Shown here: positions 1 to 31,532 of the stretch, in pieces
How the letters are laid out: each line of letters begins with the position of its first letter
Position numbering within the stretch: position 1 is the stretch's first letter
Assembly: GCF_029945965.1 (NCBI RefSeq)
Contig: NZ_JAQSDO010000015.1
Span: 1 to 64,000 of the forward strand
Direction of reading: 5' to 3'
Origin: Thermomonas sp.
Lineage (GTDB): Bacteria; Pseudomonadota; Gammaproteobacteria; Xanthomonadales; Xanthomonadaceae
DNA length: 64,000 nt
Position numbers and translations under genes: made by a program
The notes under the pieces: generated by a model
What the model saw: only the letters and a program-made list of their open reading frames with translations
Database searches by the model: none
What the model was told of the DNA's origin: nothing

Positions 1-3000
1 TCACCTGGGAAACCCAGCAGACCGACTACCCGCGCACGCGTCCCGACCTGCCCAATCATGAGCCGCGTGGCTGCCCGCGTGGGGCCAGCTATTCCTGGTA
101 CCTGTACAGCGCCAACCGGCTGAAGTATCCATTGGTGCGTGGCGCTTTGCTGCGGATGTGGCGCGAGGCGCGCAAGTCGATGACGCCGGTCGAGGCATGG
201 GCCAGCATTGTCGAGGACCCGATCAAGGCGAAGGACTACAAGTCCCGCCGCGGCATGGGTGGTTTCGCACGTGTGCGCTGGGACGAGGCCAACGAGATCA
301 TTGCTGCGTCCAACCTGTACACGACCAAGCAGTACGGCCCGGACCGGGTGATTGGCTTTTCGCCGATCCCGGCGATGTCGATGATTTCCTATGCTGCCGG
401 CGCGCGTTACCTGTCGCTGCTCGGCGGCGCCTGCCTGTCGTTCTACGACTGGTATTGCGACCTGCCGCCGTCAAGCCCTCAGGTCTGGGGCGAGCAGACC
501 GACGTGCCGGAGTCGGCCGACTGGTACAACAGCCGCTACCTGATCGCCTGGGGTTCCAACGTCCCGCAGACGCGTACGCCAGACGCGCACTTTTTCACCG
601 AGGCGCGCTACAACGGCACCAAGACAGTATCGGTGTGCCCGGATTATTCCGAAGTCGCCAAGCTCACCGACCATTGGCTGCATCCCAAGCAGGGCACCGA
701 CGCCGCACTGGCGTTCGCCTTCGGCCACGTGATCCTGAAAGAGTTCCACGTCGACAAGCCTTCGCAGTACTTCACCGACTATTGCCGGCAGTATTCGGAC
801 ATGCCGTTGCTGGTGCGGCTGGAAAAACGCGAAGATGGCCGTCTGGTGCCCGAGCGCTACCTGCGTGCCAGCGATCTTGGCGGACTGGGCGAAGCCAACA
901 ACCCCGAATGGAAGACGCTGGCCTTCGACGAAAATACCGGCGGCATCACCATTCCCGGCGGCTCGGTGGGCTTCCGCTGGGGCGAGAAGGGAAAGTGGAA
1001 CATCGAAGAAAAGGACAGTGCTGGCCGCGAAACCCGCCTGCGCCTGAGCCTGAAGGATTTCGATGAAGGCATCGAAGCGGTCAGCTTCCCGTATTTCGGC
1101 GGCATCGAACATGATCACTGGACGCCCTCGAAATTCCAGGACGTACTGGAACGCAACATCCCGGTACGCAAGCTGCAGTTGGCCGATGGCAAGGAGTGGG
1201 CGGTCGCAACCGTCTACGACCTGTTGCTGGCGCAGTACGGCGTGGATCGCGGGTTCGGTGGCGACAATGTCGCCGCAAGCTTCGACGACAACGTGCCGGG
1301 TACCCCGGCGTGGCAAGAGAAGATCACCGGCGTTCCGCGCCATGACGTGATCGAGATCGCTCGCGAGTTCGCCGATACCGCCGACAAGACACATGGTCGC
1401 AGCATGATCATTGTCGGCGCCGGCATGAACCACTGGTTCCATAACGACATGAACTATCGCGGCCTGATCAACATGCTGGTCATGTGCGGTTGCGTGGGTC
1501 AGACAGGTGGCGGTTGGGCGCACTATGTCGGCCAGGAAAAACTGCGTCCGCAAACCGGCTGGCTGCCGCTGGCGTTCGGACTGGACTGGAGTCGTCCGCC
1601 GCGTCAGATGAATGGCACATCGTATTACTACTTCAACACCGATCAGTGGCGCTACGAGAAGGTCAAGGTCGCGGAGTTGTTGTCGCCGCTGGCCGATCCG
1701 AAGAAGTATTCGGGTTCGATTGCCGACCTCAACCTGCGCGCGGTGCGGATGGGCTGGCTGCCGTGCGCGCCGCAGCTTGATCGCAATCCGTTGCAGGTGG
1801 CGCGCGACGCCGCCGCATCCGGGCAGTCCGCCCCCGATTACGTGGTCGACAAGCTGAAGTCGGGCGAGCTAGATTTCGCATTCGCCGACCCGGATTCGCC
1901 GCAGAATTTCCCGCGTGCGATGTTCGTGTGGCGCTCGAACCTGCTGGGTTCATCGGGCAAGGGCCACGAATACATGATGCGGCACATGCTCGGCACCAAG
2001 CATGGTTTGCAGGGCAAGGATCTCGGCGAGATGGGCGAGGTCAAGCCCGAAGAGATCAAGTGGCGTGACGAGGCGCCGGAAGGCAAGCTTGATCTGCTGG
2101 TCACGCTCGACTTCCGCATGTGCACCACCGCGCTGTACTCCGACGTGGTGCTGCCCACTGCGACCTGGTACGAAAAAAACGACCTCAATACATCCGACAT
2201 GCACCCGTTCATCCATCCGCTGACCAAGGCGGTGGATCCGGCATGGGAATCACGCAGCGACTGGGACATCTTCAAGGGCATTGCCCAAGCGGTCAGCGCG
2301 ATGGCGCCCGGCGTGCTTGGGATCGAGCAGGACATCGTGCTGGTGCCGACCCTGCATGACACGCCCGGCGAACTGGCGATGCCGTTCGACGTGCGCGACT
2401 GGAAGAAGGGCGAGTGCGACCCGATTCCCGGCAGGACCATGCCGTCGATCCACGTGGTCGAGCGCGACTATCCAAACCTCTACAAGAAGTTCACCTCACT
2501 CGGCCCGTTGCTCGACAAGTTCGGCAACGGCGGCAAGGGCATGAACTGGGATACCCAGGAAGAAATCGACTTCCTCGGCCAGCTAAATCACAGCGTTCGC
2601 GAGGAGGGTGTCAGCAAGGGCCGTCCACAGATCGAATCAGCCATTGATGCCTGCGAAGTGGTGCTGCACCTGGCGCCGGAAACCAACGGACATGTCGCAG
2701 TCAAGGCGTGGGAGTCGCTCGGTGAGTTCACCGGGCGCGACCACACGCATCTGGCCAAGGGCAAGGAGCACGAGGCGATCCGCTTCCGCGATATCGTCGC
2801 GCAGCCGCGCAAGATCATTTCCTCACCGATCTGGTCAGGCCTGGAAGACGATCACGTCAGCTACAACGCCGGCTATACCAACGTCCATGAGTTCATTCCG
2901 TGGCGCACCCTGACTGGCCGCCAGCAGTTCTACCAGGATCACGAATGGATGATCGCCTTCGGCGAAGGCTTCATGCAGTACCGCCCGCCGGTCGACACCA

Positions 3001-3539
3001 AGACCGTCAAGCCCCTGCTCGACAAGCGTGGCAATGGCAACAAGGAGATCGTGCTCAATTGGATCACCCCGCACCAGAAATGGGGTATCCACAGCACCTA
3101 CAGCGACAACCTGTTGATGCAGACGCTGTCGCGCGGCGGGCCGATCGTGTGGCTCAGCGAGGACGATGCGCGCGCGGCTGACATCGAAGACAACGACTGG
3201 ATCGAACTGTTCAACGTCAACGGCGCGATTACGGCACGTGCGGTGGTTAGCCAACGGGTGATGCCAGGCATGGCGATGATGTATCACGCCCAGGAACGCA
3301 TCATCAATATCCCGGGCTCGGAGATCACCGGTACCCGTGGTGGCATCCACAACTCGGTGACACGCGTGTTGCTCAAGCCCACGCACATGATCGGTGGCTA
3401 CGCACAACTGTCCTATGGGTTCAACTACTACGGTACTTGCGGCACCAACCGCGACGAGTTCGTGATCGTGCGCAAGATGAAGATGATCGACTGGCTTGAT
3501 GGCGAAGCGCCGGCCAAGACCGCCGAGGAGATTGCGTAA
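1..3539 (+). CDS. narG: Respiratory nitrate reductase alpha subunit (5' end outside window)
   Basis: Catalytic subunit of the membrane-bound quinol:nitrate oxidoreductase; it carries bis-MGD molybdenum and an N-terminal Fe-S cluster and reduces nitrate to nitrite on the cytoplasmic face. The frame is open from base 3, where it reads WETQQTDYPRTRPDLPNHEP, a hallmark NarG stretch, so an apparent internal TTG start at 132 is not the real start. About 1178 codons are present; E. coli NarG has 1247, so roughly 65-70 N-terminal residues, including the cluster-binding part, lie upstream. Other typical blocks are visible (GFSPIPAMSM, SFYDWYCDLPP, WGEQTDVPESADWYNS, WGSNVPQTRTPDAHF). The TAA stop overlaps the narH ATG by one base, which indicates translational coupling. 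The promoter is not in the window. Confidence 0.97.
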   Translation, partial: TWETQQTDYPRTRPDLPNHEPRGCPRGASYSWYLYSANRLKYPLVRGALLRMWREARKSMTPVEAWASIVEDPIKAKDYKSRRGMGGFARVRWDEANEIIAASNLYTTKQYGPDRVIGFSPIPAMSMISYAAGARYLSLLGGACLSFYDWYCDLPPSSPQVWGEQTDVPESADWYNSRYLIAWGSNVPQTRTPDAHFFTEARYNGTKTVSVCPDYSEVAKLTDHWLHPKQGTDAALAFAFGHVILKEFHVDKPSQYFTDYCRQYSDMPLLVRLEKREDGRLVPERYLRASDLGGLGEANNPEWKTLAFDENTGGITIPGGSVGFRWGEKGKWNIEEKDSAGRETRLRLSLKDFDEGIEAVSFPYFGGIEHDHWTPSKFQDVLERNIPVRKLQLADGKEWAVATVYDLLLAQYGVDRGFGGDNVAASFDDNVPGTPAWQEKITGVPRHDVIEIAREFADTADKTHGRSMIIVGAGMNHWFHNDMNYRGLINMLVMCGCVGQTGGGWAHYVGQEKLRPQTGWLPLAFGLDWSRPPRQMNGTSYYYFNTDQWRYEKVKVAELLSPLADPKKYSGSIADLNLRAVRMGWLPCAPQLDRNPLQVARDAAASGQSAPDYVVDKLKSGELDFAFADPDSPQNFPRAMFVWRSNLLGSSGKGHEYMMRHMLGTKHGLQGKDLGEMGEVKPEEIKWRDEAPEGKLDLLVTLDFRMCTTALYSDVVLPTATWYEKNDLNTSDMHPFIHPLTKAVDPAWESRSDWDIFKGIAQAVSAMAPGVLGIEQDIVLVPTLHDTPGELAMPFDVRDWKKGECDPIPGRTMPSIHVVERDYPNLYKKFTSLGPLLDKFGNGGKGMNWDTQEEIDFLGQLNHSVREEGVSKGRPQIESAIDACEVVLHLAPETNGHVAVKAWESLGEFTGRDHTHLAKGKEHEAIRFRDIVAQPRKIISSPIWSGLEDDHVSYNAGYTNVHEFIPWRTLTGRQQFYQDHEWMIAFGEGFMQYRPPVDTKTVKPLLDKRGNGNKEIVLNWITPHQKWGIHSTYSDNLLMQTLSRGGPIVWLSEDDARAADIEDNDWIELFNVNGAITARAVVSQRVMPGMAMMYHAQERIINIPGSEITGTRGGIHNSVTRVLLKPTHMIGGYAQLSYGFNYYGTCGTNRDEFVIVRKMKMIDWLDGEAPAKTAEEIA

Positions 3540-7415: not shown

Positions 7416-7481
7416 CCGGCGTCGCGCCTCGCGTGGACTTCCCACCAAGCTCCAATCTCCAATTTCAGTGGATTGACTGCC

Positions 7482-8819
7482 ATGCAGGACACCATCATCG
7501 TCACTACGGCCCAGCAACAACGGGCCATGTGGCTCAGCACGTTCGCCTTCACCGTGTGCTTTGCGGTGTGGACGATCTTTTCGATCATCGGCATCCAGAT
7601 CAAAAAGGACCTCGGGCTCAGTGAAACTGCTTTCGGCCTGCTGATCGCCACGCCGATCCTGACCGGCTCGCTGACCCGGTTATTCCTGGGAATCTGGGCC
7701 GACCAGTTCGGTGGCCGCCTGGTGCTGACCCTGGTGATGTTGTGCGCAGCCGTGGCGACCTGGATGCTGACCTGGGCTCACAGTTACCCGCAATTCATGC
7801 TCGGCGCACTGTTCGTCGGCATTGCCGGCGGGTCGTTTTCGGTTGGCGTGGCCTATGTGTCGAAGTGGTTCCCCGCCAACCGCCAGGGCACGGCGCTTGG
7901 GATCTTTGGAGCCGGCAACGTTGGCGCCGCGGTCACCAAGCTGCTTGCACCAATGGTCATGGTGGCGGCGGGCTGGATGATGGTGGCGAAGGTGTGGGCG
8001 ATCGCCATTGCCGTGGTCGCGATCCTGTTCTACCTGTTCAGCCAGGACGATCCGTCGCTGGCGGAGCGCCGCAAGACCGGCGCGAAGCCGATGTCGTTCC
8101 ACGAGCAGATGGCGCCGCTCAGGAACATTCAGGTCTGGCGCTTTGCGCTGTATTACTTCTTCGTATTCGGCGGGTTCGTTGCGCTTGCGTTGTGGCTACC
8201 GCACTTCCTGACCGGCGCCTATGGGCTGGACATCAGGACCGCCGGCCTGTTCGCCGCCGCGTACTCAATCCCGGCCAGCCTGTTCCGCATCGTAGGCGGC
8301 TGGCTGTCAGACAAGGTCGGCGCACGCACGGTGATGTACTGGACGTTCGGCGTCTCGGCGCTGTGCACGTTCGTGCTCAGCTACCCGGACACGCATTACA
8401 TCGTGAAGGGCATCCATGGCGACATCCACCTGCATCTGGCGATCGGGCTGATCCCGTTCACGGTGCTGGTGTTCGTGCTTGGCTTCTTCATGTCGCTGGG
8501 CAAGGCCGCCGTCTACAAGCACATCCCTGTGTATTACCCGAACCACGTCGGCTCAGTGGGTGGCGTGGTCGGCATGATCGGCGGACTCGGTGGTTTCATC
8601 ATGCCGATCGCGTTTGGTGTGATGAACGACCTGACCGGTGTGTGGACCAGCTGCTTCATGCTGCTGTTCCTGGTGGTGGCCGCGGCGCTGGCCTGGATGC
8701 ACTTCGCGATCCGGCGCATGGAGCGCGCGAACTTCCCGCAGATCGGCAACGTGACCGATCTGCCGGAAATCATCAACGCCGCGAAAGTGGATCAGGCCTT
8801 GGCTGGGGCAGGCCGCTGA
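7482..8819 (+). CDS. narK: Nitrate/nitrite transporter, NarK family (MFS)
   Basis: Twelve-segment major facilitator protein of 445 residues that moves nitrate in and/or nitrite out across the inner membrane. Both nitrate-signature regions are visible: GIFGAGNVGAAVTKLLAP near residues 146-163 and GGVVGMIGGLGGFIMP near 358-373. The ATG at 7482 is preferred over a TTG nine bases upstream because the protein then begins MQDTIIVTTAQQQ. It lies 66 bases after the isomerase gene with no Fnr box in between, so it is probably transcribed with narGHJI. Whether it is a NarK1-type symporter or a NarK2-type antiporter cannot be decided by eye. Confidence 0.93.
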   Translation: MQDTIIVTTAQQQRAMWLSTFAFTVCFAVWTIFSIIGIQIKKDLGLSETAFGLLIATPILTGSLTRLFLGIWADQFGGRLVLTLVMLCAAVATWMLTWAHSYPQFMLGALFVGIAGGSFSVGVAYVSKWFPANRQGTALGIFGAGNVGAAVTKLLAPMVMVAAGWMMVAKVWAIAIAVVAILFYLFSQDDPSLAERRKTGAKPMSFHEQMAPLRNIQVWRFALYYFFVFGGFVALALWLPHFLTGAYGLDIRTAGLFAAAYSIPASLFRIVGGWLSDKVGARTVMYWTFGVSALCTFVLSYPDTHYIVKGIHGDIHLHLAIGLIPFTVLVFVLGFFMSLGKAAVYKHIPVYYPNHVGSVGGVVGMIGGLGGFIMPIAFGVMNDLTGVWTSCFMLLFLVVAAALAWMHFAIRRMERANFPQIGNVTDLPEIINAAKVDQALAGAGR

Positions 8820-8940: not shown

Positions 8941-10434
8941 ATGGCCGACCACGACTTGCGCGGCTTCCTCGACCGGCTGGAACGCGGCGGTCGCCTGCAG
9001 CGGATTCGGACGTCAGTCGACCCGGAGCTCGAATCGACTTCGCTATGCCTGCGCGCCTTGAAGTCGGGCGGTCCGGCACTACTGATGGAACAACCTGTCG
9101 GATCCCGGCATGCGTTGCTGGGCAACCTGTTCGGCCACCGCGACCGAATCGAGGCCGCACTCGCCGGGCGGCCAATCGCCAGCCTGCGCGAATTGGGCGA
9201 ACTGCTGGCCGCGATCAAGGAACCTCGCTGGCCGTCCAGCCTGAAGCAGGCGCTGTCGACCTGGCCCGAGCTTGCGCAACTTGCGCACGTGGCACCGCAG
9301 CGAGTACGCGAAGCCGCATTCGAACATGAAACATGGGTCGGCGATGACATCGATCTCGCGCGCCTGCCAATACAGCGCTGCTGGCCTGGCGATGTTGCCA
9401 AGCTCATCACCCTGGGACTGGTGATCACCCGCGGCACCCGCAAGCCGCGGCAAAATGTCGCCATCTACCGGATGCAGGTGATCGGACCCAACCGCGTGAT
9501 CATGCGTTGGTTGCCGCATCGCGGCGGCGCGCTGGATTACGCCGACTGGAAAGCCGACCATTCGGACAAGCCCTTCCCGGTGCTGGTGGCGATAGGCGCC
9601 GATCCGGCGACCACCCTGGCCGCGGTCGCGCCAGTGCCGGATACCTTGTCCGAGTACGAATTCGCCGGTTTGTTGCGTGGCCAGCGCACCCGCATCTGGC
9701 ACAGCACGCGCACTGGCCTGGATGCGCCGGCGGGCGCGGAAATGCTGATCGAAGGCGTGATCCATCCGGGCGATGAGGCGCTGGAAGGCCCGTTCGGCGA
9801 CCACACCGGCTATTACAACGCGCAGGCGATGTTCCCGGTGCTGACCATCGAGCGCATGTACCTGCGCCAGGATGCGATCTACCAAGGCAGCTACATGGGC
9901 CGCGCACCGTTCGACGAACCCTCGGTGCTCGCGCTGGCGTTGAACGAGATCTTCGTGCCGATCCTGCGCAAGGTGTTTCCGGAAATCGTCGACTTCTACC
10001 TGCCGCCGGAAGCGTGTTCGTACCGCATCGCGGTGGTCTCGATCCGCAAGCAATACGTCGGCCATGCACGGCGGATGATGATGGGCGTGTGGTCCTACCT
10101 GCGCCAGTTCACGTACACCAAGTTCGTGATCATCGTGGATGAGGACATCGACGTGCGCGACTGGTCGCAGGTGATCTGGGCGATGTCGACTCGGGTCGAT
10201 CCGGCGCGCGACACCATGCTGGTCGAGAACACCCCGATCGATTATCTCGATTTCGCCAGCCCGACACCGGGTATTGGCTCGAAACTCGGCATCGATGCGA
10301 CCAACAAATGGCCCGGCGAAACCAGCCGCAGCTGGAGCAAGCCGATCAGCCTGGATGCCGGCGTAGAAAAACGCGTCGATGCATTGTGGAAGCAGGTGGT
10401 GGCGGACGCCGCCGGCAAGGCGACGTCGCGCTAG
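8941..10434 (+). CDS. ubiD: UbiD-family decarboxylase (probably octaprenyl-hydroxybenzoate decarboxylase)
   Basis: Prenyl-FMN-dependent decarboxylase predicted to remove the carboxyl group of the prenylated 4-hydroxybenzoate intermediate of ubiquinone. The length of 497 residues equals that of E. coli UbiD, and UbiD-type stretches are visible (QNVAIYRMQVIG, HRGGALDYADWK, LEGPFGDHTGYYN, IDATNKWPGE near the C-terminus). The E-x-x-R catalytic region could not be verified residue by residue. A private Fnr box precedes it and ubiU/ubiV follow about 0.8 kb downstream, which favours the ubiquinone role over other UbiD-family substrates. UbiX, needed to make prenyl-FMN, is not in the window. Confidence 0.85.
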   Translation: MADHDLRGFLDRLERGGRLQRIRTSVDPELESTSLCLRALKSGGPALLMEQPVGSRHALLGNLFGHRDRIEAALAGRPIASLRELGELLAAIKEPRWPSSLKQALSTWPELAQLAHVAPQRVREAAFEHETWVGDDIDLARLPIQRCWPGDVAKLITLGLVITRGTRKPRQNVAIYRMQVIGPNRVIMRWLPHRGGALDYADWKADHSDKPFPVLVAIGADPATTLAAVAPVPDTLSEYEFAGLLRGQRTRIWHSTRTGLDAPAGAEMLIEGVIHPGDEALEGPFGDHTGYYNAQAMFPVLTIERMYLRQDAIYQGSYMGRAPFDEPSVLALALNEIFVPILRKVFPEIVDFYLPPEACSYRIAVVSIRKQYVGHARRMMMGVWSYLRQFTYTKFVIIVDEDIDVRDWSQVIWAMSTRVDPARDTMLVENTPIDYLDFASPTPGIGSKLGIDATNKWPGETSRSWSKPISLDAGVEKRVDALWKQVVADAAGKATSR

Positions 10435-11115: not shown

Positions 11116-11129
11116 CTGATCCAGATCAA
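11116..11129. promoter_or_regulatory. Fnr-type box between divergent DnrO-like gene and ubiU
   Basis: CTGATCCAGATCAA. At -41.5 spacing it would place starts near 11164 for ubiU (37-base leader) and near 11081 for the lipoprotein (34-base leader), so one box could serve both directions. Confidence 0.65.
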
Positions 11130-11200: not shown

Positions 11201-12199
11201 ATGCAACTGGTATGTCCCGCCGGCAACCTGCCGGCCCTGAAGGCGGCGGTCGAGGCCGGTGCAAACGCCGTGTATGCGGGTTTCCGCGACCAGACCAATG
11301 CGCGTGCCTTCCCCGGCCTGAACTTCAATGACGATGAACTCAAGGCCGGCATCGCGTTCGCGCATGCACGCGGTGCCAAGGTCTACCTGGCATTGAACAC
11401 CTATCCGGACAGCGTGCACCTGCCGCAGTGGCATGCAGCGGTGGATCGCGCTGCAGAATTTGGCTGCGATGCCATTATCGTTGCCGAAATGGCGGTGCTC
11501 GATTACGCCGCGCGTACCTATCCGACGCTGCCACGGCATCTGTCGGTACAGGGTTCGGCCACTACAGAGCCGGCGCTGCGCTATGCGTACGAGCGGTTCG
11601 GGATTGCCCGCGCGGTGTTGCCGAGGGTCCTATCGATCCAGCAGGTCGAGCGCCTGTGCGAACGTGCGCCGATTCCGCTGGAAGTGTTCGCATTCGGCAG
11701 CCTGTGCATCATGGTCGAAGGACGCTGCCAGCTGTCGAGCTATGTCACCGGTGCCTCGCCGAACCGGCATGGCGTGTGTTCACCAGCGAAGTTCGTGCGT
11801 TGGGATGAGCACGATGATGGCCGCCGCAGCGTCCGTCTCAACGATGTGCTGATCGACAAATTCGAGCCGGCCGAACCGGCCGGCTATCCCACCGTGTGCA
11901 AGGGTCGCTTCGATGTCGGTGGCGAGATCTTCCATGCGCTGGAGGAGCCGACCAGCCTCAACACTATCGAACTGATTCCGCGGCTGGCACAAGCCGGCGT
12001 GGCAGCGCTGAAGATCGAGGGCCGACAACGCGGGATTGCCTACGTGGGCGCTGTGACCAAGACCTGGCGCGCAGCGCTGGACCGCTACCGCGATCACCCG
12101 GATGGATGGGCACCTGACGCGGAAGGGCAACGCACGCTCTCGGCGCAGTCCGAAGGCCACCAGACCACCTTGGGTCCCTATCACCGTGCCTGGCATTGA
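11201..12199 (+). CDS. ubiU: O2-independent ubiquinone hydroxylation protein UbiU (U32 family)
   Basis: UbiU and UbiV form a complex that hydroxylates the ubiquinone ring without oxygen. The 332-residue protein starts MQLVCPAGNLPALKAAVEAG. The four [4Fe-4S] ligands are at Cys169, Cys176, Cys193 and Cys233, almost exactly the E. coli positions (169, 176, 193, 232), and lie in CIMVEGRCQLSSYVTG, NRHGVCSPAKF and YPTVCKGRF. The ATG at 11201 is chosen because U32 proteins start with this M-L-CPAG motif. The stop is four bases before the ubiV ATG. It was long classed as a U32 peptidase; the cysteines and partner gene favour UbiU. Confidence 0.95.
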   Translation: MQLVCPAGNLPALKAAVEAGANAVYAGFRDQTNARAFPGLNFNDDELKAGIAFAHARGAKVYLALNTYPDSVHLPQWHAAVDRAAEFGCDAIIVAEMAVLDYAARTYPTLPRHLSVQGSATTEPALRYAYERFGIARAVLPRVLSIQQVERLCERAPIPLEVFAFGSLCIMVEGRCQLSSYVTGASPNRHGVCSPAKFVRWDEHDDGRRSVRLNDVLIDKFEPAEPAGYPTVCKGRFDVGGEIFHALEEPTSLNTIELIPRLAQAGVAALKIEGRQRGIAYVGAVTKTWRAALDRYRDHPDGWAPDAEGQRTLSAQSEGHQTTLGPYHRAWH

Positions 12200-12203
12200 T
12201 GCG

Positions 12204-13085
12204 ATGAAACTCAGCCTCGGACCCCTGCAATATTTCTGGCCGCGCGAGCGCACCCTGGCGTTCTACCGCGAGGCCATGGATTGGCCGGTGGACACGATTT
12301 ACCTCGGCGAAACCGTGTGCAGCAAGCGCCGCGAGATCGGCACCCGCGAGTGGATCGAGCTTGCCGATCAGATCGCCGAAACCGGCAAGGACGTGGTGCT
12401 GTCCAGCTTGTCCTTGATCGAGGCTGAATCCGAACTCGGCGTGCTGGCACGACTGGTTGCCCACGGTCGTTTCTGGATCGAAGCCAACGATCTGTCCGCG
12501 GTGCAGTTGTGCCGCAGCGCGGGACTGCCGTTCGTGGCCGGGCCGACCTTGAACATCTACAACCAGCGTGCACTGGCAATGTTGGTCGAGGATGGCCTGC
12601 GGCGCTGGGTGCCCGGTGTCGAACAGGGTCATACGCTGATTTCAGAATTGCGCGATGCACTGGTCGAAGAAGGCGGTGTAATGCCCGAGCTCGAGGTGAT
12701 CGCCTGGGGCCGGTTGCCACTGGCGTTTTCGGCGCGCTGCTTCACTGCGCGTGCGCTGGACGTGCCCAAGGATCAATGCGGGTTCCGCTGCATCGATTAT
12801 CCCGACGGCATGCCGCTGGCCACCCGCGAAGGCAGGCCGTTCCTGCGCATCAACGGCATCCAGGTACAGGGCGAAGAAGTGACCGACCTCGCACCCGAAT
12901 GGGAGGAGCTGTGCACGCTCGGCGTCGACATGCTGCGCCTGTATCCGCAGATCGAGGGCATGCAGGAAGTGGTTGCACGATTCGACACGCTACGTCGCAC
13001 CCACGAGATCCCTGCGCGGCTCGGTGCCCGCAACGGCTACTGGTATGGCGAGGCTGGGATGCGCATGGGTGAAACGTCGGCCTGA
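12204..13085 (+). CDS. ubiV: O2-independent ubiquinone hydroxylation protein UbiV (U32 family)
   Basis: Partner of UbiU, 293 residues (E. coli 292). Fe-S ligands are visible at Cys39 (GETVCSKRR), Cys179 (FSARCFTAR), Cys192 and Cys196 (DQCGFRC), within one residue of the E. coli set (39, 180, 193, 197). The start KLSLGPLQYFWPRE is typical. The gene follows ubiU by four bases, so the two are co-transcribed, probably from the Fnr-controlled promoter upstream of ubiU. It converges on nadB. Confidence 0.95.
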   Translation: MKLSLGPLQYFWPRERTLAFYREAMDWPVDTIYLGETVCSKRREIGTREWIELADQIAETGKDVVLSSLSLIEAESELGVLARLVAHGRFWIEANDLSAVQLCRSAGLPFVAGPTLNIYNQRALAMLVEDGLRRWVPGVEQGHTLISELRDALVEEGGVMPELEVIAWGRLPLAFSARCFTARALDVPKDQCGFRCIDYPDGMPLATREGRPFLRINGIQVQGEEVTDLAPEWEELCTLGVDMLRLYPQIEGMQEVVARFDTLRRTHEIPARLGARNGYWYGEAGMRMGETSA

Positions 13086-13148: not shown

Positions 13149-14630
13149 TCACGCCGCGGTCGTTGCAGCGGATGATGACGTGATCACCTCGTCGGTGCGC
13201 CAGTGCGCACCAATGCTGGCCTGGCGTCGGTAGGCGCAAGCGAGAATCGACTGCCCCAGGCGCGCTTGCCAGCCGCGTCCTGCGAGTGGTGCAAGGGTTT
13301 CGCTGGCCTCGCGCAAGCCCTTCGCCGTGCGGATTGGACCAGCCGCATGGCCCATCGCGTCGCGCAGCAGTTGCATGGCTTCATGGTCCAGGCATGGTCC
13401 GCACATGACCAGTTCCAGCGCGGCCACTGCATCATTGCTCGCATGCGACGAAGCAGCAGGTTGCTTGCCCAGGTACGCGCCCAGACGACGCCCGAACACC
13501 ACGCACTCCAACAGCGAATTGCTGGCCAGCCGGTTGGCGCCGTGGACGCCGCTGCAGGCGATCTCGCCCGCGGCATGTAGCCCGGGAATGCTGGTGCGGC
13601 CGATGTCGTCGGTCTGCAATCCGCCCATGTGAAAATGCGCCGCCGTGGTGACCGGAATCGGCATCCAGCGTGGATCGATGCCGTGCTGGAGACAAGCCGC
13701 CAGTACCGTCGGGAACATGCGCGGCCAGTCGATTGCCAGCCCGCTTGCATCCAGGGTGACCGCGCCGGTTTCGCGCCGCGCTTGCCAGACACGACGAGCC
13801 ACGATGTCGCGCGGTGCCAGGTCGCCCAGTGGGTGTGCATCGGCCATCACCAGCCGGCCTGTGCCATCGCGCAGGCGCGCGCCTGCACCGCGCAAGGCCT
13901 CGGTGACCAGCGGCAGCGAGCCTGCGCCAACGTCCAGCGCGGTTGGATGGAACTGCACGAATTCCAGGTCACGCGATGCTGCACCCGCGGCAAGCGCCAG
14001 CGCCAAGCCGGCGCCATTGGCGCCCGGCGGGTTAGTGGTGGAAGGGAATAATGCGCCGATGCCACCCGTCGCCAGCACTACATCCGATCCGAGCAGCGTC
14101 TGGCTGCTTCCGCCGTTGTCCACGTGCACGCCAGCGATGCGCCCGCCGCGTCGTATCAGGCCATCGACCTCGACATCGCTGCGCCATTCGATATGCGTGG
14201 CCGCGGCGACGGCAGCGGCCAGCATAGTGGTGACGCGCAGCCCGGTGGCATCGCCGCCGGCATGCACGATACGCGCAACCCCGTGGCCACCTTCGCGACC
14301 AAGTTGCAGGTTGCCGTCTCCATCATTGTCGAATGCCACACCCTGCGCTTGCAGCCAGTGGATGCTGGCCGGCGCGATTGTGGCCAACAGTTGCACGCAG
14401 TGTGAGTCGTTGTGCCCTGCGCCGGCGCGCATGGTGTCCGCGACATGGGCTTCGATGGTATCTGCGTTGTCCATTGCCGCCGCGATGCCGCCCTGCGCAA
14501 GCATGCTCGCGCTGCCCACTCCATCCCGGCGGCGGCTAAGCAGCAGCACCGGCCTGGGCGCCGCAGCCAGCGCCGTGCATAACCCGGCAATACCGCTACC
14601 AACCACGATGATCGGCCAATCACGCACCAT
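13149..14630 (-). CDS. nadB: L-aspartate oxidase
   Basis: Flavoenzyme that oxidises L-aspartate to iminoaspartate, the first step of de novo NAD synthesis; it can use fumarate instead of oxygen when oxygen is absent. The 493-residue protein has the N-terminal FAD-binding motif VVGSGIAGLCTALAA (residues 9-23), the flavoprotein blocks DLAPRDIVARRVW and HFHMGGLQTDD, and GLHAAGEIACSGVHGANRLA. It is slightly shorter than E. coli NadB (540) at the C-terminus. The ATG overlaps the nadA stop as ATGA. It is the last gene of the leftward operon headed by the Fnr box at 18583. Confidence 0.94.
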   Translation of the reverse strand: MVRDWPIIVVGSGIAGLCTALAAAPRPVLLLSRRRDGVGSASMLAQGGIAAAMDNADTIEAHVADTMRAGAGHNDSHCVQLLATIAPASIHWLQAQGVAFDNDGDGNLQLGREGGHGVARIVHAGGDATGLRVTTMLAAAVAAATHIEWRSDVEVDGLIRRGGRIAGVHVDNGGSSQTLLGSDVVLATGGIGALFPSTTNPPGANGAGLALALAAGAASRDLEFVQFHPTALDVGAGSLPLVTEALRGAGARLRDGTGRLVMADAHPLGDLAPRDIVARRVWQARRETGAVTLDASGLAIDWPRMFPTVLAACLQHGIDPRWMPIPVTTAAHFHMGGLQTDDIGRTSIPGLHAAGEIACSGVHGANRLASNSLLECVVFGRRLGAYLGKQPAASSHASNDAVAALELVMCGPCLDHEAMQLLRDAMGHAAGPIRTAKGLREASETLAPLAGRGWQARLGQSILACAYRRQASIGAHWRTDEVITSSSAATTAA

Positions 14631-15679
14631 CAGATGCGTTCGCGACGGCCTACCGCCAGCATCCGTTCGAGCGCTGCGCGTGCGCGCACCGACACATCGT
14701 GTGCGACCACGACTTCATGTTTGAGGTCGCGCAGGCAGGCATGGATATTCGGCAAGGTGATCCGCTTCATGTGCGGACACAGGTTGCAGGGTTTGATGAA
14801 TTCGACATTCGGGAACTGGTTGCGCAGGTTGTCGGCCATCGAGCACTCGGTAATCATCGCCACCCGTCGCGGTTGTTCCTTTTCCAGCCACTTGCCCATC
14901 GCCGATGTTGATCCGACGAAATCGGCCTCTGCCAGCACCTCTGGCGCACACTCCGGGTGCGCGACGATCTTTGCATCGAAACGCTCGCGGGTATGCCTCG
15001 CTTCCATTGCGGTGAACTTTTCGTGCACCTCGCACTGGCCGTGCCACAGCACAAGTTCGACCTGGGTCTGGGTTGCCACCCAACTGCCGAGGTAGCGATC
15101 CGGCAGGAAGATGACCTTGTCCACGCCCATTGCCTCGACCATCTGTACGGCATTGGCCGAGGTGCAGCAGGCATCGGATTCAGCCTTCACTTCGGCCGAG
15201 GTGTTGACGTAGCTGACCACCGGCACGCCCGGGTGGCGTTCGCGCAATGCCCGCACGTCCGCGGCGGTGATCGAAGACGCCAGTGAACAGCCCGCCTCCA
15301 GATCCGGGATCAGCACGGTCTTGTCCGGCGCCAGGATCTTGGCGCTCTCGGCCATGAAGTGCACGCCGCACAGCACGATCAGATCGCTGTCGCAGTCGGC
15401 CGCCGCTTGTGCCAATGCCAGCGAGTCGCCGGTGATATCGGCCACGCCGTGGAAGATCTCCGGCGACTGGTAGCTGTGCGCCATGATCACCGCGCCGCGC
15501 TGCTGCTTCAGCTGCCGGATCGCATCGATCCATGGCAGGTGCAGCGGCACCTCCAGGCATGGCAAGAGCTGTGCCAGCGTGTCTGCCAGCGTGGCGTATT
15601 CCTGTTCAAGGCCGGAGCGCCATCGTGGCGATGCCGGCAGGGAAGAGTCGGTCATGGTTTGTCGCAAGGTTTGGGTCAT
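14630..15679 (-). CDS. nadA: Quinolinate synthase A
   Basis: [4Fe-4S] enzyme that condenses iminoaspartate with dihydroxyacetone phosphate to quinolinate. It has 349 residues. Cluster cysteines are visible in VLCGVHFMAESAKI, ESDACCTSANA and KPCNLCPHMKRITLP. The ATG at 15679 is chosen because it overlaps the preceding stop (ATGA) and an upstream extension would run inside the UbiT fusion gene. It is translationally coupled on both sides. The oxygen-labile cluster fits an anaerobic operon. Confidence 0.95.
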   Translation of the reverse strand: MTQTLRQTMTDSSLPASPRWRSGLEQEYATLADTLAQLLPCLEVPLHLPWIDAIRQLKQQRGAVIMAHSYQSPEIFHGVADITGDSLALAQAAADCDSDLIVLCGVHFMAESAKILAPDKTVLIPDLEAGCSLASSITAADVRALRERHPGVPVVSYVNTSAEVKAESDACCTSANAVQMVEAMGVDKVIFLPDRYLGSWVATQTQVELVLWHGQCEVHEKFTAMEARHTRERFDAKIVAHPECAPEVLAEADFVGSTSAMGKWLEKEQPRRVAMITECSMADNLRNQFPNVEFIKPCNLCPHMKRITLPNIHACLRDLKHEVVVAHDVSVRARAALERMLAVGRRERI

Positions 15680-16551
15680 GCCTCGCCGCGATGCGCAGCG
15701 CGGGCTGCACGCGCCAGTCGAGCGCCGCGGTTCAGGCCAATGCGCAGGCCCAGCGGAACAGATTCCCACGGGAGGCGTTCCAGCAGGTTGCGCACTGTCA
15801 GGCCGAGCTCGGTATCTCCGGTCAGCATCAGGCGACGCTGGAAGAACAAGGTGTCGGCATCTTCCAGGCGACTGGCCAGCAACAGCAGGTCGGTGGTGGT
15901 GCCGCGCACGCTGGCTTCGGCAGGTTCATTGCAGACCACCAGCCGGTTGTCCCTGCACTCGATTACCCAGCGCAGGTCGAGATCGGTGACTTCGATGCCC
16001 AGTCGTCGTCCTTGCATGAATTCAAACTCGCCTTCTGCCAGCGGCGCAGCCAGCACCCGTGCCATCGCCCGTTCCAGCAACTGCCCACGCAGGTGCTCGG
16101 GCACCAGCCGCAACAATGGCGCCAGCCGGGCGGGCGGCGGCAGGCAGCGCAGCAACCATTGGCTGCCCGCAGTGGGTGATGTCGATGTCGAAGCGTGTGA
16201 TGTACTCATGTTGAGCGTGAGCATGCCGCGTTGGACGGGCGGCTGTCGTTGATCCAGGTCATCCGCAAGCCCCTGCTGCCGGCAGGCATCGGCGATGGCA
16301 AGATCGATCAGCCGCTGCGCGGTGGCGTCCGAGAGGCCCAGGCGACGTGCCAGTCTTCTTGCCCGCGCATGCACCTGCGCTTCGCGAGTGTGGTCGCGCG
16401 CGGCTTGGCCAGTCGTGTGCTTGAGCCTGGCTGCGCGTCGTACCAGCGCACCACGACCCGCAAGCAGGGCCAGCAACGCATCGTCGACAGCATCGATCGC
16501 ATGGCGCACGCCAGCTAATGCCGGTGCCGGGTGGTGGGGCATTGGCGCCAT
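15676..16551 (-). CDS. ubiT: Chorismate mutase (AroQ)-UbiT fusion protein
   Basis: A 291-residue fusion. Residues about 12-95 are an AroQ-type chorismate mutase domain that aligns without gaps to the E. coli PheA mutase: Arg16, Arg33, Lys44, Asp53, Arg56, Glu57 and Gln93 stand for Arg11, Arg28, Lys39, Asp48, Arg51, Glu52 and Gln88; Ser84 is replaced by Ala89. Residues about 116-291 are an SCP2-type UbiT, with the stretches EFEFMQGRRLGIEVTDLDL and DADTLFFQRRLMLTGDTELG nearly as in E. coli UbiT, the lipid-binding accessory factor of O2-independent ubiquinone synthesis. The frame is unbroken, and internal ATGs in the linker lack a ribosome-binding site, so a true fusion is likely. Both ends overlap neighbours as ATGA. 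The role of the mutase domain is unknown. Confidence 0.9.
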   Translation of the reverse strand: MAPMPHHPAPALAGVRHAIDAVDDALLALLAGRGALVRRAARLKHTTGQAARDHTREAQVHARARRLARRLGLSDATAQRLIDLAIADACRQQGLADDLDQRQPPVQRGMLTLNMSTSHASTSTSPTAGSQWLLRCLPPPARLAPLLRLVPEHLRGQLLERAMARVLAAPLAEGEFEFMQGRRLGIEVTDLDLRWVIECRDNRLVVCNEPAEASVRGTTTDLLLLASRLEDADTLFFQRRLMLTGDTELGLTVRNLLERLPWESVPLGLRIGLNRGARLARAARAAHRGEA

Positions 16552-17636
16552 CACGTGGCGACCGATCCGGGTCGATGCAGCTTCCAGATTGCGTGCAACA
16601 TCCCAAGGAGCGTGCCCAACCATGCCGCCAGGGCAATTGCGAGGAACACCCCCGGCACCCAGTTCAGGAAGTCGAACTCCAGAGCTCTCAACATGGCATG
16701 GGTAGCTGCGGCGTACATGCCTAAGGGGAACACCGCGCCCCAATACAGTGGGTCGTAGCGCAGCGGGAAACGACGATAGAAGTGACGCCAGATTCCCAGT
16801 ACCAGCAGCATCGGGATCCACCAGGTTCCGGTGGCCCAATAGAAAACGGTGAAGCCCTTGATGAAGGGTTGCAGCGACAGCAGGAACGGCGCGTGTTCGA
16901 CGTTGACGATCAGCAGCGAACCGGCGAGGGTGGAAATCGCCATCGCGCCCATGTTGATCCAGTACGGCGGCGACAGGTCACCGGGTTCGAAGGTGAAGAA
17001 GGTATAGCGGTAGAAGATCAGCGACATCATCCATATGTAGAGCATCCCGCCCCACAGCCACATCGACAGCGCGAAGAAATTCAGCTCAAGTTTCCAAGGC
17101 TGGCCGATGCGTGCGGCCAGCAACGCACCCAGCACGGCAATTGATTGGGTAGCAACAACCGCCAGCAACCAACCGCCATTGATGCCGTTCTCCAGGCGCG
17201 GCTTGCTGCGCTTGACCGTGAAAATGGTGAAGATGGTGTAGGTCAGGACAATCCACAACGTGATCGCCAGCCACCACAGCCCCAGTGCCAGGTTCAGGTT
17301 CTCGCCCAGCAGCAGGCATTGGCTTCCGAGCACGCTGGTGGCGGCCACGCTGGTGAAATAGCCGGGTGCGCGGAGGTGGTCGACGATGTCATCCAGCATC
17401 GCCTTGCGGTGCCACAGCAGGCGCAGCCCGAACAGAGCCCATACCACCACATAGAACACCCAGTTGATCGCGTACAACGCCCGCGCAAGCGATTCGAAAC
17501 CCAGCCGGTAAGCCGCGATGGAAATGATGCCGGTCGACATCACCATCGCGAAATACGCGGGTGACAGGCCTGCCAGTCCGGGTAGCCGCAGCGACAGGCG
17601 TGTCATCGGCGATGCAGCATTGGGCGCGGAAGGCAT
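16551..17636 (-). CDS. TDT-family (TehA/SLAC1-like) membrane transporter
   Basis: A 361-residue integral membrane protein with about ten hydrophobic segments and the start GLSPAYFAMVMSTGIISIAA (near residues 23-42), typical of the tellurite-resistance/dicarboxylate transporter and SLAC1 anion-channel superfamily. AGGA lies a suitable distance upstream of the ATG. Its stop overlaps the UbiT fusion start by one base. The substrate is unknown; an anion such as nitrite, nitrate or a dicarboxylate is conceivable from the operon but is not shown by the sequence. Confidence 0.82.
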   Translation of the reverse strand: MPSAPNAASPMTRLSLRLPGLAGLSPAYFAMVMSTGIISIAAYRLGFESLARALYAINWVFYVVVWALFGLRLLWHRKAMLDDIVDHLRAPGYFTSVAATSVLGSQCLLLGENLNLALGLWWLAITLWIVLTYTIFTIFTVKRSKPRLENGINGGWLLAVVATQSIAVLGALLAARIGQPWKLELNFFALSMWLWGGMLYIWMMSLIFYRYTFFTFEPGDLSPPYWINMGAMAISTLAGSLLIVNVEHAPFLLSLQPFIKGFTVFYWATGTWWIPMLLVLGIWRHFYRRFPLRYDPLYWGAVFPLGMYAAATHAMLRALEFDFLNWVPGVFLAIALAAWLGTLLGMLHAIWKLHRPGSVAT

Positions 17637-21265: not shown

Positions 21266-23197
21266 CTAGGCTAGCAGCGCCAGCATGCGTCGAGCGAGAT
21301 AGTCGAAATAACGGTCAATGTAGCTGATGCCGTTTTCTCGATCCAGCAGGTACGGATTCATCAGGGTATGCCGCAGGATCACCAGGCGGTCGTCGTTGTC
21401 GCCTCCCAGTGTGGCCGGGTCGATCTCCAGCGCAAGCAGGATGCGCTGCATCTCGGTGTCACCCAATGCCTCGGGTCGCAGTGTGGTGACTGAGCCGAAA
21501 AATTCGCGACTTTGTATCGGCTGGCGCGGATCACTGCGCAGCTCGTCGTGCAGACGGCGGACGAAGGCATTTGCACTGCCCAGGTCACGGTTGCCGGTCG
21601 GGTTTAGGGCGAGGCAGACCAGGTTGCTGTCGGGCGTAAACGGCACCAGTACCCGGCACAGGCTCGCGACTTCGCCGGCAAACTGCCGCGCACGCGTGTC
21701 GAAGGCTTCCGCCGCGACAACTGTCTGCGCCTGCAGCCGGCCGAACCCGTCATGGTGCAGCGGCAACACCTTGTGCGTGACATAGGCCGCGGCAGCGGTC
21801 GCGCCCGGCTTGGAGCCTTCCGGAATGAACTGGCCCAGGTTGCGATAGCGCGCCAGGTAATTGGCCGGGGTGGCGTCGTGGAACACGTAGTCCGCCGCTT
21901 CGCCCAGCAGTGCGGTCGCGCGGTGGTCGCGGCAGATGAAGGCACCGGAGCCATACGGCAGATAGCCGAGCTTGTGCGGATCCACCGTCACCGAATCCGT
22001 GCGCCCGAGTGCGCCGAATGCCGCATGCACTTCGGTGGACGGGAACATGTTGAAACCCGCGCCGACTTCGTCGCGCGAACGCAGGCTGCCGTCTTCGTTG
22101 CGAAACAGGGTGGCGAGGTAGCCGCCCCACGCACCATCCACATGCACGCCAAATCCAAGCCCGCGAGCGGCGAAACGATCACGCGCATCGACCACGCCAT
22201 CGACCGGATCGATAGTCCCGTATTCGGTGGTGCCCAGCACCGCGACCGCAAGCAGCACCGGCTGGCGCGTGCGCTCGCAGGTTTCCAGCGTGTCCTGCAA
22301 GGCGTCCAGGTCCAGGCGCATTCCGCGTTCGGGCAGCAATTGCAATTGCTTGCGTCCCAGCCCGAGCAGCTTCAGGCCCTTGCTCCAGGAGTAATGCGCG
22401 GTGATCGGCGCCAGCACCTGCGGGACTTTCAGTTGCGTGTGCGTGGTGAAGAAATCGGCGATGCCCAGATGCTCCAGCCGCTGCGCCTCGACCTGTGCAT
22501 GCCAGTGCCGATGTGCGGCCACCGGCTGCGCCGCAAGCCATGCCTGCCAGCGATCGAGCAGGTCGATGCCGGCACTCGGTGCCAGGTTGAACGCCGTCCA
22601 GTCGTCATCGGGTAAAGCGATGTCAGGCACGCCCGCAGCGCGTAGCGCGACCGGGAATGCCTTCAATGCCAGCGCCAGCCGCAGCGCTTGGTAATTAGCC
22701 AAAGTCCCGCCGGACGTCAGGTGCCCGAACGCGCAATCGGGCTGTACCGGGTCGTGCGGATAGCCCAGCATTCGCGCCAGTTGCAGGCCGACCTGGACTT
22801 CCAGGTCCACGGTGACAGGTGCTGCGTCTTCGCTGACGTTGTTGGGGTTGTAAGGCAGGGTCAGGATCTGTGCCGCCAGCCCCGGGATCAGCAGGTCCGA
22901 CACCATGTGACCCATGTAGCGCGGGCTGTGGAAGGGCACCGATTTCTTGAGCGCCGCCGACAGCTGGTGCAGTTCGCGGCGCAGGCGCGCCTCGAAATCC
23001 TGGTAGCCCGGATCGTGCTGGGCGTGGGTGGGGATCGCCGGTGGATCCTCGGGATGGAAATTGCGCCGCCAATAGACATGGTCACGCAGGAACTCGACGA
23101 CGAGTTTTTCCAGCAGCGCGTCGTTCTCGCCATAAGGGCCAAGGAAACACGCGTCCAGCGCGTAGCGGCTGCGCTCGGGGGCAGGCAAGGATGACAT
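21266..23197 (-). CDS. Group II PLP-dependent decarboxylase, long form
   Basis: A 643-residue pyridoxal-phosphate decarboxylase. The lysine forming the cofactor aldimine lies in SVTVDPHKLGYLPYGSGAF; GHLTSGGTLANYQALR and HVDGAWGGYLATL are also typical. The family decarboxylates amino acids (tyrosine, glutamate, aspartate and others), and this long form cannot be assigned a substrate by eye. ATG at 23197 is chosen as the first codon that leaves the Fnr box at 23258 upstream (predicted leader 26 bases). It is divergent from the porin gene. Anaerobic expression is inferred. Confidence 0.85.
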   Translation of the reverse strand: MSSLPAPERSRYALDACFLGPYGENDALLEKLVVEFLRDHVYWRRNFHPEDPPAIPTHAQHDPGYQDFEARLRRELHQLSAALKKSVPFHSPRYMGHMVSDLLIPGLAAQILTLPYNPNNVSEDAAPVTVDLEVQVGLQLARMLGYPHDPVQPDCAFGHLTSGGTLANYQALRLALALKAFPVALRAAGVPDIALPDDDWTAFNLAPSAGIDLLDRWQAWLAAQPVAAHRHWHAQVEAQRLEHLGIADFFTTHTQLKVPQVLAPITAHYSWSKGLKLLGLGRKQLQLLPERGMRLDLDALQDTLETCERTRQPVLLAVAVLGTTEYGTIDPVDGVVDARDRFAARGLGFGVHVDGAWGGYLATLFRNEDGSLRSRDEVGAGFNMFPSTEVHAAFGALGRTDSVTVDPHKLGYLPYGSGAFICRDHRATALLGEAADYVFHDATPANYLARYRNLGQFIPEGSKPGATAAAAYVTHKVLPLHHDGFGRLQAQTVVAAEAFDTRARQFAGEVASLCRVLVPFTPDSNLVCLALNPTGNRDLGSANAFVRRLHDELRSDPRQPIQSREFFGSVTTLRPEALGDTEMQRILLALEIDPATLGGDNDDRLVILRHTLMNPYLLDRENGISYIDRYFDYLARRMLALLA

Positions 23198-23257
23198 GGG
23201 GGGCGTGGTCTGCTCGCGAGATTGCCTGCAGGATCGCGCGTACACGCACTCAGGACC

Positions 23258-23271
23258 TTGACCCGGATCAA
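23258..23271 (-). promoter_or_regulatory. Fnr-type box upstream of the PLP decarboxylase
   Basis: TTGACCCGGATCAA. Class II spacing gives a leftward start near 23223. Confidence 0.62.
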
Positions 23272-23327
23272 TCAAGGGCGCGACGGCACGTGTTTCAGCC
23301 CAAAGGGTGTGTCGCAGATGGATCCGC

Positions 23328-23341
23328 TTGACTTGGCTCAA
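23328..23341 (+). promoter_or_regulatory. Fnr-type box upstream of the porin gene
   Basis: TTGACTTGGCTCAA, with nearly symmetric half-sites. A rightward start near 23376 would leave a 22-base leader. Confidence 0.5.
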
Positions 23342-23397
23342 CGCGTCGCACGCTGCCTGCGTTGATGCTGTGCACATTCCCAAGAAGGCACACTGCA

Positions 23398-24606
23398 ATG
23401 GCTGCGATTTCGCGCGTTCCTGTATTGCTTTGTCTGGTCTGCCTGCCGCTTGTCGCGACGGCGCAATCGGTAATGGTTGATCCCACCTGGAACCTGCGCC
23501 TGCGCCATGAGCAGGTCGACGACGGCGCGTTCGCGCGCGATGCCATTGCCGACACCCTGCGCCTGCGCGCCGGACTTCATTTCGCGTTCCCGCATGGCTG
23601 GTCAGCCTTGCTGGAAGGCGAGGGCATTGCCAGTGCCGGCAATCATTACAATAGCGGTGCAAATGGCCGCACCGCATATCCCGCAGTGATTGATCCCAGC
23701 GGCGCAGAACTCAATCAGTCGTGGATTGCTTGGAATGGCGCCAAGGGCGCGGCGAAGTTCGGGCGCCAGCGCATCCTGATCGACAATCAACGCTGGGTCG
23801 GCAATGTCGGCTGGCGCCAGAATGAGCAGACCTTCGATGCGCTGTCGCTTGAATACAAGCCGATTGCAGGCCTGACCCTGCGCTACGACTGGCTGGATCG
23901 CGTGCATCGGGTCAGCGGCGACGACGCGCGCGATCCGCTGGCGCGCGAGCGTAACCTCGAATCCCATCTGTTCAATGCCGCCTGGAAGCATGGCACGCAA
24001 CAAGTCGTGGGCTATGCCTGCCTGCATCATGACCAGGATGTGGCCAGCGCGTCGACATCGACCTATGGTCTGCGCTGGACCGGTGACCGGCTGCGCGATG
24101 GCAACGGTTGGGGCTGGACAGCCGAAGCCGCAAACCAGCGCAATTACAGCACAAACCCACTGCATTTTTCACACAGTTATTGGCTGCTGGAGCCGGCATA
24201 CAACTGGCACGGCACCAGTTTCAAGGCCGGTTGGGAACATCTGGGTGGCAACGGCAGCCACGCGCTGCAAACGCCGCTGGCGACTCTGCATGCCTTCAAC
24301 GGCTGGGACGACAAATTCCTGGCGACGCCGGCTGGTGGCTTGAACGACCGCTACCTGTCCGCCAGCGGGAAATTCGGCCACATCCGTGATGGCCGTTTCG
24401 CATGGGCGCTGGCCTGGCACGACTACCGTGCCGATACCGCACTGGCTGGCTTCGGCCACTACGGCAGCGAATGGAATGCCTCGCTTGGGTTCCCGCTGGC
24501 CACGCGCGTGCAGGCGCTGCTGAAGATCGCTGACTACCGCGCCGACCGGTTTGCGCGCGACACCACCAAGGTCTGGTTGCAAGTGGAGTGGGCCAGTGCG
24601 AAATGA
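23398..24606 (+). CDS. Outer-membrane beta-barrel porin, alginate-export family type
   Basis: A 402-residue protein with a signal peptide (MAAISRVPVLLCLVCLPLVATAQ cleaved after residue 22 or 23). Alternating aromatic/polar strands and repeated G-W-Y patterns follow to the end, as in the alginate_exp porins. Stretches such as GAELNQSWIAWNGAKGAAKF and GRQRILIDNQRWVGNVGWRQ are typical. AAGAAGG lies about nine bases before the chosen ATG. A dedicated Fnr-type box suggests an anaerobic role, perhaps uptake of nitrate or another anion. The name of the family does not mean this cell exports alginate. Confidence 0.85.
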   Translation: MAAISRVPVLLCLVCLPLVATAQSVMVDPTWNLRLRHEQVDDGAFARDAIADTLRLRAGLHFAFPHGWSALLEGEGIASAGNHYNSGANGRTAYPAVIDPSGAELNQSWIAWNGAKGAAKFGRQRILIDNQRWVGNVGWRQNEQTFDALSLEYKPIAGLTLRYDWLDRVHRVSGDDARDPLARERNLESHLFNAAWKHGTQQVVGYACLHHDQDVASASTSTYGLRWTGDRLRDGNGWGWTAEAANQRNYSTNPLHFSHSYWLLEPAYNWHGTSFKAGWEHLGGNGSHALQTPLATLHAFNGWDDKFLATPAGGLNDRYLSASGKFGHIRDGRFAWALAWHDYRADTALAGFGHYGSEWNASLGFPLATRVQALLKIADYRADRFARDTTKVWLQVEWASAK

Positions 24607-31518: not shown

Positions 31519-31532
31519 TTGATCTGGATCAA
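31519..31532 (-). promoter_or_regulatory. Perfect Fnr box of the hemN-fnr operon
   Basis: TTGATCTGGATCAA matches the consensus in all ten half-site bases. The predicted leftward start at 31484 coincides with the hemN ATG. Confidence 0.82.

Follow-up and report, generated by a model that had tools for sequence, protein, structure and literature searches.

A chorismate mutase–UbiT fusion beside ubiUV in Thermomonas that may supply prephenate for oxygen-independent ubiquinone hydroxylation

UbiT, as known from the O2-independent ubiquinone pathway of Escherichia coli and Pseudomonas aeruginosa, is a protein of about 160–200 amino acids without a chorismate mutase (CM) domain (174 amino acids in E. 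coli, according to the available part of PMC6747719). In Zymomonas mobilis, ubiT is joined to another part of the same pathway, the U32 protein UbiU (2019 mBio paper, PMC6747719, same excerpt). CM domains of the AroQ type, for their part, are found at the N terminus of PheA (CM-prephenate dehydratase), TyrA (CM-prephenate dehydrogenase), and AroQ-DAHP synthase, where the partner uses prephenate or belongs to the same pathway. Prephenate-dependent hydroxylation has been proposed for the U32 proteins TrhP, RlhA, and UbiUV, and the accessible portions of the respective papers name no dedicated prephenate source (PMC11574389, PMC6599085, PMC10470549). The gene described here, cm-ubiT, shares features with all of these systems. 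Similar to the known UbiT, its product belongs to the SCP2 family, matches the UbiT equivalog model, has UbiU and UbiV as candidate partners, and shows signs of FNR-type regulation, but it is 291 amino acids long and includes a CM domain. It resembles PheA, TyrA, and AroQ-DAHP synthase in its N-terminal AroQ domain, whereas the partner is a lipid-binding protein rather than a dehydratase, dehydrogenase, or synthase. As in Z. mobilis, ubiT is joined to another component of its pathway, although this component is a chorismate mutase and not UbiU. Finally, UbiU and UbiV, for which the same chemistry has been proposed, are both encoded at this locus.

We analyzed a contiguous stretch of 64,000 nucleotides from a Thermomonas genome, referred to below as the window (Table 1). 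The cm-ubiT frame, read on the minus strand, opens with the ATG at 16551 and closes with a TGA that ends at 15676, with no internal stops. Residues 15–92 of the encoded protein match Pfam CM_2 (PF01817; E = 1.4e-15, 57.7 bits, cut-off 27), residues 168–258 match SCP2 (PF02036; E = 1.6e-14), and residues 147–263 match the NCBIfam UbiT equivalog (134.1 bits, cut-off 46.9). CM_2 and SCP2 are the only Pfam domains in the protein, the dehydratase, dehydrogenase, and synthase partner domains all being absent. Thus, the single unbroken frame joining an AroQ mutase to a canonical UbiT, which had been proposed in an initial sequence-only reading of this DNA, holds, with both profiles scoring above their cut-offs. 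The start codon of cm-ubiT overlaps the TGA of the upstream SLAC1-family gene and its stop overlaps the start of nadA; because of these overlaps, SLAC1, cm-ubiT, nadA, and nadB likely form an operon. The order nadA and nadB-like after cm-ubiT is kept in many of the named relatives.

Table 1. Features of the window around cm-ubiT
Feature	Position	Strand	Details
narG	132–3539		
NarK-like transporter	7473–8819		score under cut-off
UbiD-family decarboxylase	8941–10434	+	TIGR00148 468 bits, cut-off 244.85; PRK10922 678 bits, under 788	
	
FNR-type box CTGATCCAGATCAA upstream of ubiU	11116–11129	+	one mismatch
ubiU	11201–12199	+	515.4 bits, cut-off 440; start taken as ATG 11201, listed frame from 11165
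ubiV	12102–13085 (listed frame)	+	346 bits, cut-off 275; match from residue 36
nadB-like and nadA, downstream in apparent operon	13149–15769	-	NadB 441.4 bits, just under 452.75
cm-ubiT (AroQ CM-UbiT fusion)	15676–16551	-	single 291-aa frame
UbiT/SCP2 domain	15763–16113	-	NF047962 match
Internal ATG in frame (codon 115), putative start of free UbiT	16207–16209	-	46 bp past box centre
-10-like hexamer CATGCT	16220–16225	-	begins 30 bp past box centre
FNR-type box ATGACCTGGATCAA in linker	16249–16262	-	8/10 to TTGATN4ATCAA
AroQ chorismate mutase domain (CM_2)	16273–16509	-	Pfam CM_2 match
SLAC1-family gene, upstream of cm-ubiT	16551–17636	-	TGA overlaps cm-ubiT ATG

With narG, the NarK-like gene and, beyond cm-ubiT, genes for NnrS, a NorB-type oxidoreductase, and HemN, the locus appears geared to respiring nitrate anaerobically, with both nitrate and NO reduction included. 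UbiD-family decarboxylases catalyze a shared step in ubiquinone synthesis. FNR-type boxes with at most two mismatches number 24 in the window versus 12.9 expected; a perfect one, TTGATCTGGATCAA, is located at 31519–31532, just upstream of hemN (30084–31484, minus strand). The window also encodes an 803-aa decarboxylase-like protein (21266–23677, minus strand), for which the nearest model is tyrosine decarboxylase, although the score falls far short of its cut-off (303.7 versus 905.3 bits). The 3.24 Mb genome has two U32 matches in all, UbiU and UbiV, and likewise two CM_2 matches, cm-ubiT and a PheA-like protein.

The product of chorismate mutase is prephenate, and we infer from the sequence that the CM domain of the fusion makes it from chorismate. 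In the available parts of the sources, prephenate is the reported O donor of anaerobic ubiquinone hydroxylation (PMC11574389, citing Ferizhendi et al., PNAS 2024), had been raised as a possible O donor for UbiUV in a 2023 mBio paper (PMC10470549), and is required by the U32 protein TrhP to hydroxylate tRNA (PMC6599085). The fusion is best read as a means of O-donor supply, because its CM domain would produce this reported donor and because the adjacent ubiUV genes encode the only U32 matches of the genome. We put the probability that the protein is a bifunctional UbiT whose AroQ domain makes prephenate for UbiU/UbiV at roughly 0.65. In the proposed mechanism, the N-terminal domain would convert chorismate to prephenate at the site of UbiU/UbiV action, and the fusion would tie O-donor supply to the lipid-binding factor of the pathway and to anaerobic growth. 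Prephenate may reach UbiU/UbiV by local hand-over or through a larger prephenate pool; by either route, the CM domain would act for these two proteins. In addition, an internal FNR-type promoter would probably yield free UbiT, in which case both forms, CM-UbiT and UbiT, would coexist in the cell.

A search for the same architecture, suggested in the sequence-only reading, found the fusion as a single frame in 59 of the 398 genomes of the order: 57 full-length, stop-free matches (own genome included), spread over four families (f1, f2, f3, and f12), and two genomes (G109 and G373) in which the single frame was reported by the search as two pieces. Given this recurrence, the fusion is not due to chance. 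Assembly error as its source is ruled out by its presence in many genomes. All 80 named fusion loci, the best 80 of 273 relatives and hence a set biased to full-length fusions, are single-frame (two of them, L043 and L044, are copies in one genome); their genera include Lysobacter, Thermomonas, Arenimonas, Dyella, Frateuria, Rhodanobacter, Dokdonella, Stenotrophomonas, Luteimonas, Pseudoxanthomonas, and Xanthomonas. Both ubiU and ubiV are within the fetched flank at 62 of these 80 loci; among the remaining 18 genomes, UbiU is encoded elsewhere in 15 and none was found in three, one of which (L110) has a locus ending in a partial ubiV. Variation was observed as well. In G008, an assembly of two contigs that is 89% complete, the CM and UbiT parts are in different, overlapping frames; in G343 and G283, the fetched region contains ubiU, ubiV, and UbiT but lacks a CM; the UbiT frame of G214 is preceded by a stop; in G319, the CM gene (L117) and UbiT are 35 kb apart; and G046 has a CM gene (L119) and a weak match to the UbiT model. 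The L117 and L119 domains are of the fused type although apart from ubiT, and the G046 copy carries Arg in place of Lys39. In other families of the order, none of the 30 UbiT loci examined (L125–L134 and L137–L156) has a CM; those of family f9 (L127–L134) encode UbiT without ubiU or ubiV within the 8–14 kb fetched.

The linker bears on the alternative that survives best, namely, that cm-ubiT consists of two nested genes sharing one frame, with CM expressed from the upstream operon, UbiT made mainly from an FNR-controlled internal promoter, and the join itself of little effect. An FNR-type box scoring at least 8/10 is present in 50 of the 78 unique linkers, compared with 3.3% of 2787 length-matched background stretches. 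At a threshold of 7/10, the box is centred exactly 46 bp (45 genes) or 43 bp (16 genes) before an in-frame ATG in 61 of the 81 genes, spacings that were picked after inspection of the linker box scan, the background control covering the box score only. In both spacing groups (50 dereplicated cases), a hexamer begins 30 bp past the box centre, with A at position 2 in 37/37 and 13/13 and T at position 6 in 36/37 and 13/13. The copy in the window is imperfect, with 8/10 for the box and CATGCT as the hexamer. We take this box–hexamer geometry to be that of a class II FNR promoter, with transcription expected to begin at the ATG or immediately ahead of it. As stated in the accessible text of the sources, ubiT of E. 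coli is served by two promoters, one of which is activated by FNR and the other independent of it (PMC10470549), and FNR sites upstream of ubiT are common in Pseudomonadota (PMC11707229). The fixed spacing of box, hexamer, and in-frame ATG, along with this known regulation, indicates that free UbiT is probably made alongside CM-UbiT from the putative internal promoter. Nevertheless, the frame is kept in 59/59 fusions of the order survey, which counts single-frame matches (G008 being the out-of-frame case seen), and in 80/80 named loci, despite differences in linker length; moreover, a scan for ATG, and not for GTG or TTG, found none within the linker stretch covered in L094, L105, and L107. 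This conservation of the frame and the three linkers without ATG suggest that the joined protein matters, and we consider nested genes with a join of little consequence unlikely. The sequence-only reading had named, as grounds for abandoning the fusion, a ubiT transcript distinct from that of the fusion and with a start of its own: such a promoter and start are predicted in the window gene and in most of the relatives examined, but since the frame is kept regardless, the fusion is not refuted, although it is probably not the sole product.

Outside the order, CM genes occur next to ubiT or ubiV without being fused. In a survey of 321 genomes of the class, 88 encode a UbiT that scores above the cut-off, including three from the order of the window; of the other 85, 80 regions were fetched (all except G689, G657, G699, G423, and G513), several of which end at contig ends. 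At six of these 80 loci (G568, G706, G653, G460, G600, and, weakly, G457), an unfused CM gene is the immediate neighbour of ubiT or ubiV, and the other 74 have no CM. In the order of G706, where 19 genomes were searched, UbiT exceeded the cut-off in 12, and all 12 have an adjoining CM (G706, G460, and G600 appear in both surveys); G568 is from a different order, and G653 and G457 are from neither of the two. An FNR-type box of at least 8/10 separates ubiT from CM in 10 of these 12 cases, compared with 44 of 648 background stretches; such a box is present in G653 and absent in G568. Two of the six separate CM genes were checked against Pfam CM_2 and both pass; the Pfam run covered the separate CM genes L167, L184, L117, and L119, the rest being identified with a home-made profile. 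The G457 domain (L265) is weak (E = 1e-5), with Arg11 unaligned and Arg51 changed. Elsewhere in the class, the loci at which a stand-alone CM gene adjoins ubiT or ubiV are L197–L208, L167, and L260, besides the weak L265, all in orders other than that of the window, and most of L197–L208 have an FNR-type box common to CM and ubiT. In a search of the phylum, CM was missing from all 40 regions fetched, 37 of which come from outside the class, and from all 30 short loci. A general role of CM as a part of ubiTUV loci is ruled out by the 74 class loci, the phylum search, and the loci of other families, all without CM; because most loci outside the order lack CM and some relatives have lost it, CM is not essential. 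In a tree of CM domains (45 rows, 91 columns, L265 dropped beforehand), the fused domains cluster in a single group with the separated domains of G319 and G046 (100/98), and the stand-alone neighbours fall outside it, in several places, with most forks weak. Independent recruitment of the neighbouring CMs is a reading of this tree and not a result, given the weak forks and a minimum of one change forced by the starred branches, with which a single origin of the neighbours would be compatible. Among the comparison rows labelled pheA in the alignment and tree, L031 has no second domain, and in L028, L029, L032, L033, and L034 the sequence following CM appears dehydrogenase-like, of the TyrA type.

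The AroQ part could instead have become a dimerization or docking module for UbiT that is no longer relevant as an enzyme, given that the AroQ domains of which 1ecm is an example form intertwined dimers. At the eight positions we take to be catalytic in AroQ (R11, R28, K39, D48, R51, E52, S84, and Q88 in E. coli PheA), the window protein has R, R, K, D, R, E, A, and Q. The alignment to the K-12 protein (NC_000913.3) bears out the earlier claim that Ser84 to Ala is the only change, and this difference could be taken as a sign of such a module. Across the 81 fused rows (the window protein and the 80 named loci, some near-identical), Arg11, Arg28, Lys39, Arg51, and Glu52 are kept in all, Gln88 in 80, and Asp48 in 76, with position 84 being Ala in 75, Gly in five, and Ser in one. 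The catalytic positions are the most conserved of the domain in these rows, which argues against a purely structural role, and a docking module would leave the separate CM genes beside ubiT unexplained; we therefore regard it as improbable. The solved E. coli CM (1ecm) aligns gaplessly with a profile built from 66 fused proteins. The AlphaFold2 model built from these proteins (mean pLDDT 87.6, pTM 0.63) has three CM helices, a low-confidence linker at about residues 109–119, and an SCP2-like part. The best Foldseek matches are UbiJ-SCP2 structures (6h6n, 6h6o, and 6h6p; E = 2.9e-5 for 6h6o_A), and 1ecm_A ranks 38th (E = 6.4e-3, 0.9 Å over 84 columns, target TM 0.88), the three-helix AroQ fold being present in the modelled CM part. 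Among the named NCBIfam CM subtypes, the domain is under every cut-off, PRK09239 coming closest (41.8 bits versus 120). Median dN/dS values are 0.45 for CM, 0.32 for UbiT, and 0.87 for the linker, supportive only, as the 2053 pairs are non-independent and dS is often near saturation.

It is slightly less probable still that the CM serves phenylalanine/tyrosine synthesis or general flux control and stands beside ubiT by an accident of operon structure. CM is a general enzyme of the shikimate pathway, and nadA and nadB share the apparent operon, but PheA, with its own CM_2 match, is already present, and CM is found beside ubiT in other orders, among other neighbours and with a common FNR-type box. 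A chorismate or isochorismate lyase supplying 4-hydroxybenzoate or a similar ring, which the shared fold of PchB lyases and the lack of any UbiC (PF04345) match in the genome or the 291-aa protein might suggest, is rejected as very unlikely given the intact mutase residues and the profile scores (24.3 bits versus 126 for the isochorismate lyase model PRK07075), and the genome also encodes one chorismatase-type protein, albeit under the model cut-off (195.7 bits versus 325). This protein could presumably make 4-hydroxybenzoate, as XanB2 does. For the same reasons, the emphasis on chorismate as ring precursor in the sequence-only reading fares poorly, whereas its idea of a chorismate-processing activity serving the ubiquinone complex remains plausible in the form of a tie to UbiU/UbiV, with prephenate as the O donor, a link absent from that reading.

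For O-donor supply, then, we count the fusion itself, the catalytic residues, the predicted fold, the conservation, and the genomic link between CM and ubiTUV. Against it count the PheA of the same genome, the internal promoter, which could yield UbiT without CM just when oxygen is absent, the G343 and G283 loci without CM, the three of 18 genomes in which no UbiU was found, the scores under all named CM subtype cut-offs, and the lack of CM at most loci outside the order and at all 30 examined from its other families. More tentatively, and with the odds against it, CM could be a dedicated O-donor module that was joined to ubiTUV more than once, by fusion, gene adjacency, or a shared FNR-type site, with local hand-over of prephenate and a ratio of CM-UbiT to free UbiT set by oxygen.

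We found no description of a CM-UbiT fusion in the literature searched at the level of titles and abstract openings, in agreement with the earlier reading, although the PNAS 2024 paper might mention it. We regard the fusion as a new pairing of domains that are themselves known, within an established pathway, and one that carries a specific functional meaning. According to the available part of a recent paper, direct evidence that U32 oxidases catalyze the reaction is still to be shown (PMC11574389). The question on which the fusion bears is how prephenate reaches the U32 hydroxylases and gives up its oxygen. CM-UbiT next to ubiUV, together with the CM genes beside ubiTUV elsewhere, adds evidence at the genome level, from organisms other than E. 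coli, for prephenate as the relevant metabolite, and CM-UbiT, UbiU, and UbiV would offer a compact system for rebuilding the hydroxylation from chorismate. If the more tentative reading, a dedicated module with local hand-over, is correct, an organic O donor would be made on site by a part of the hydroxylase complex itself.
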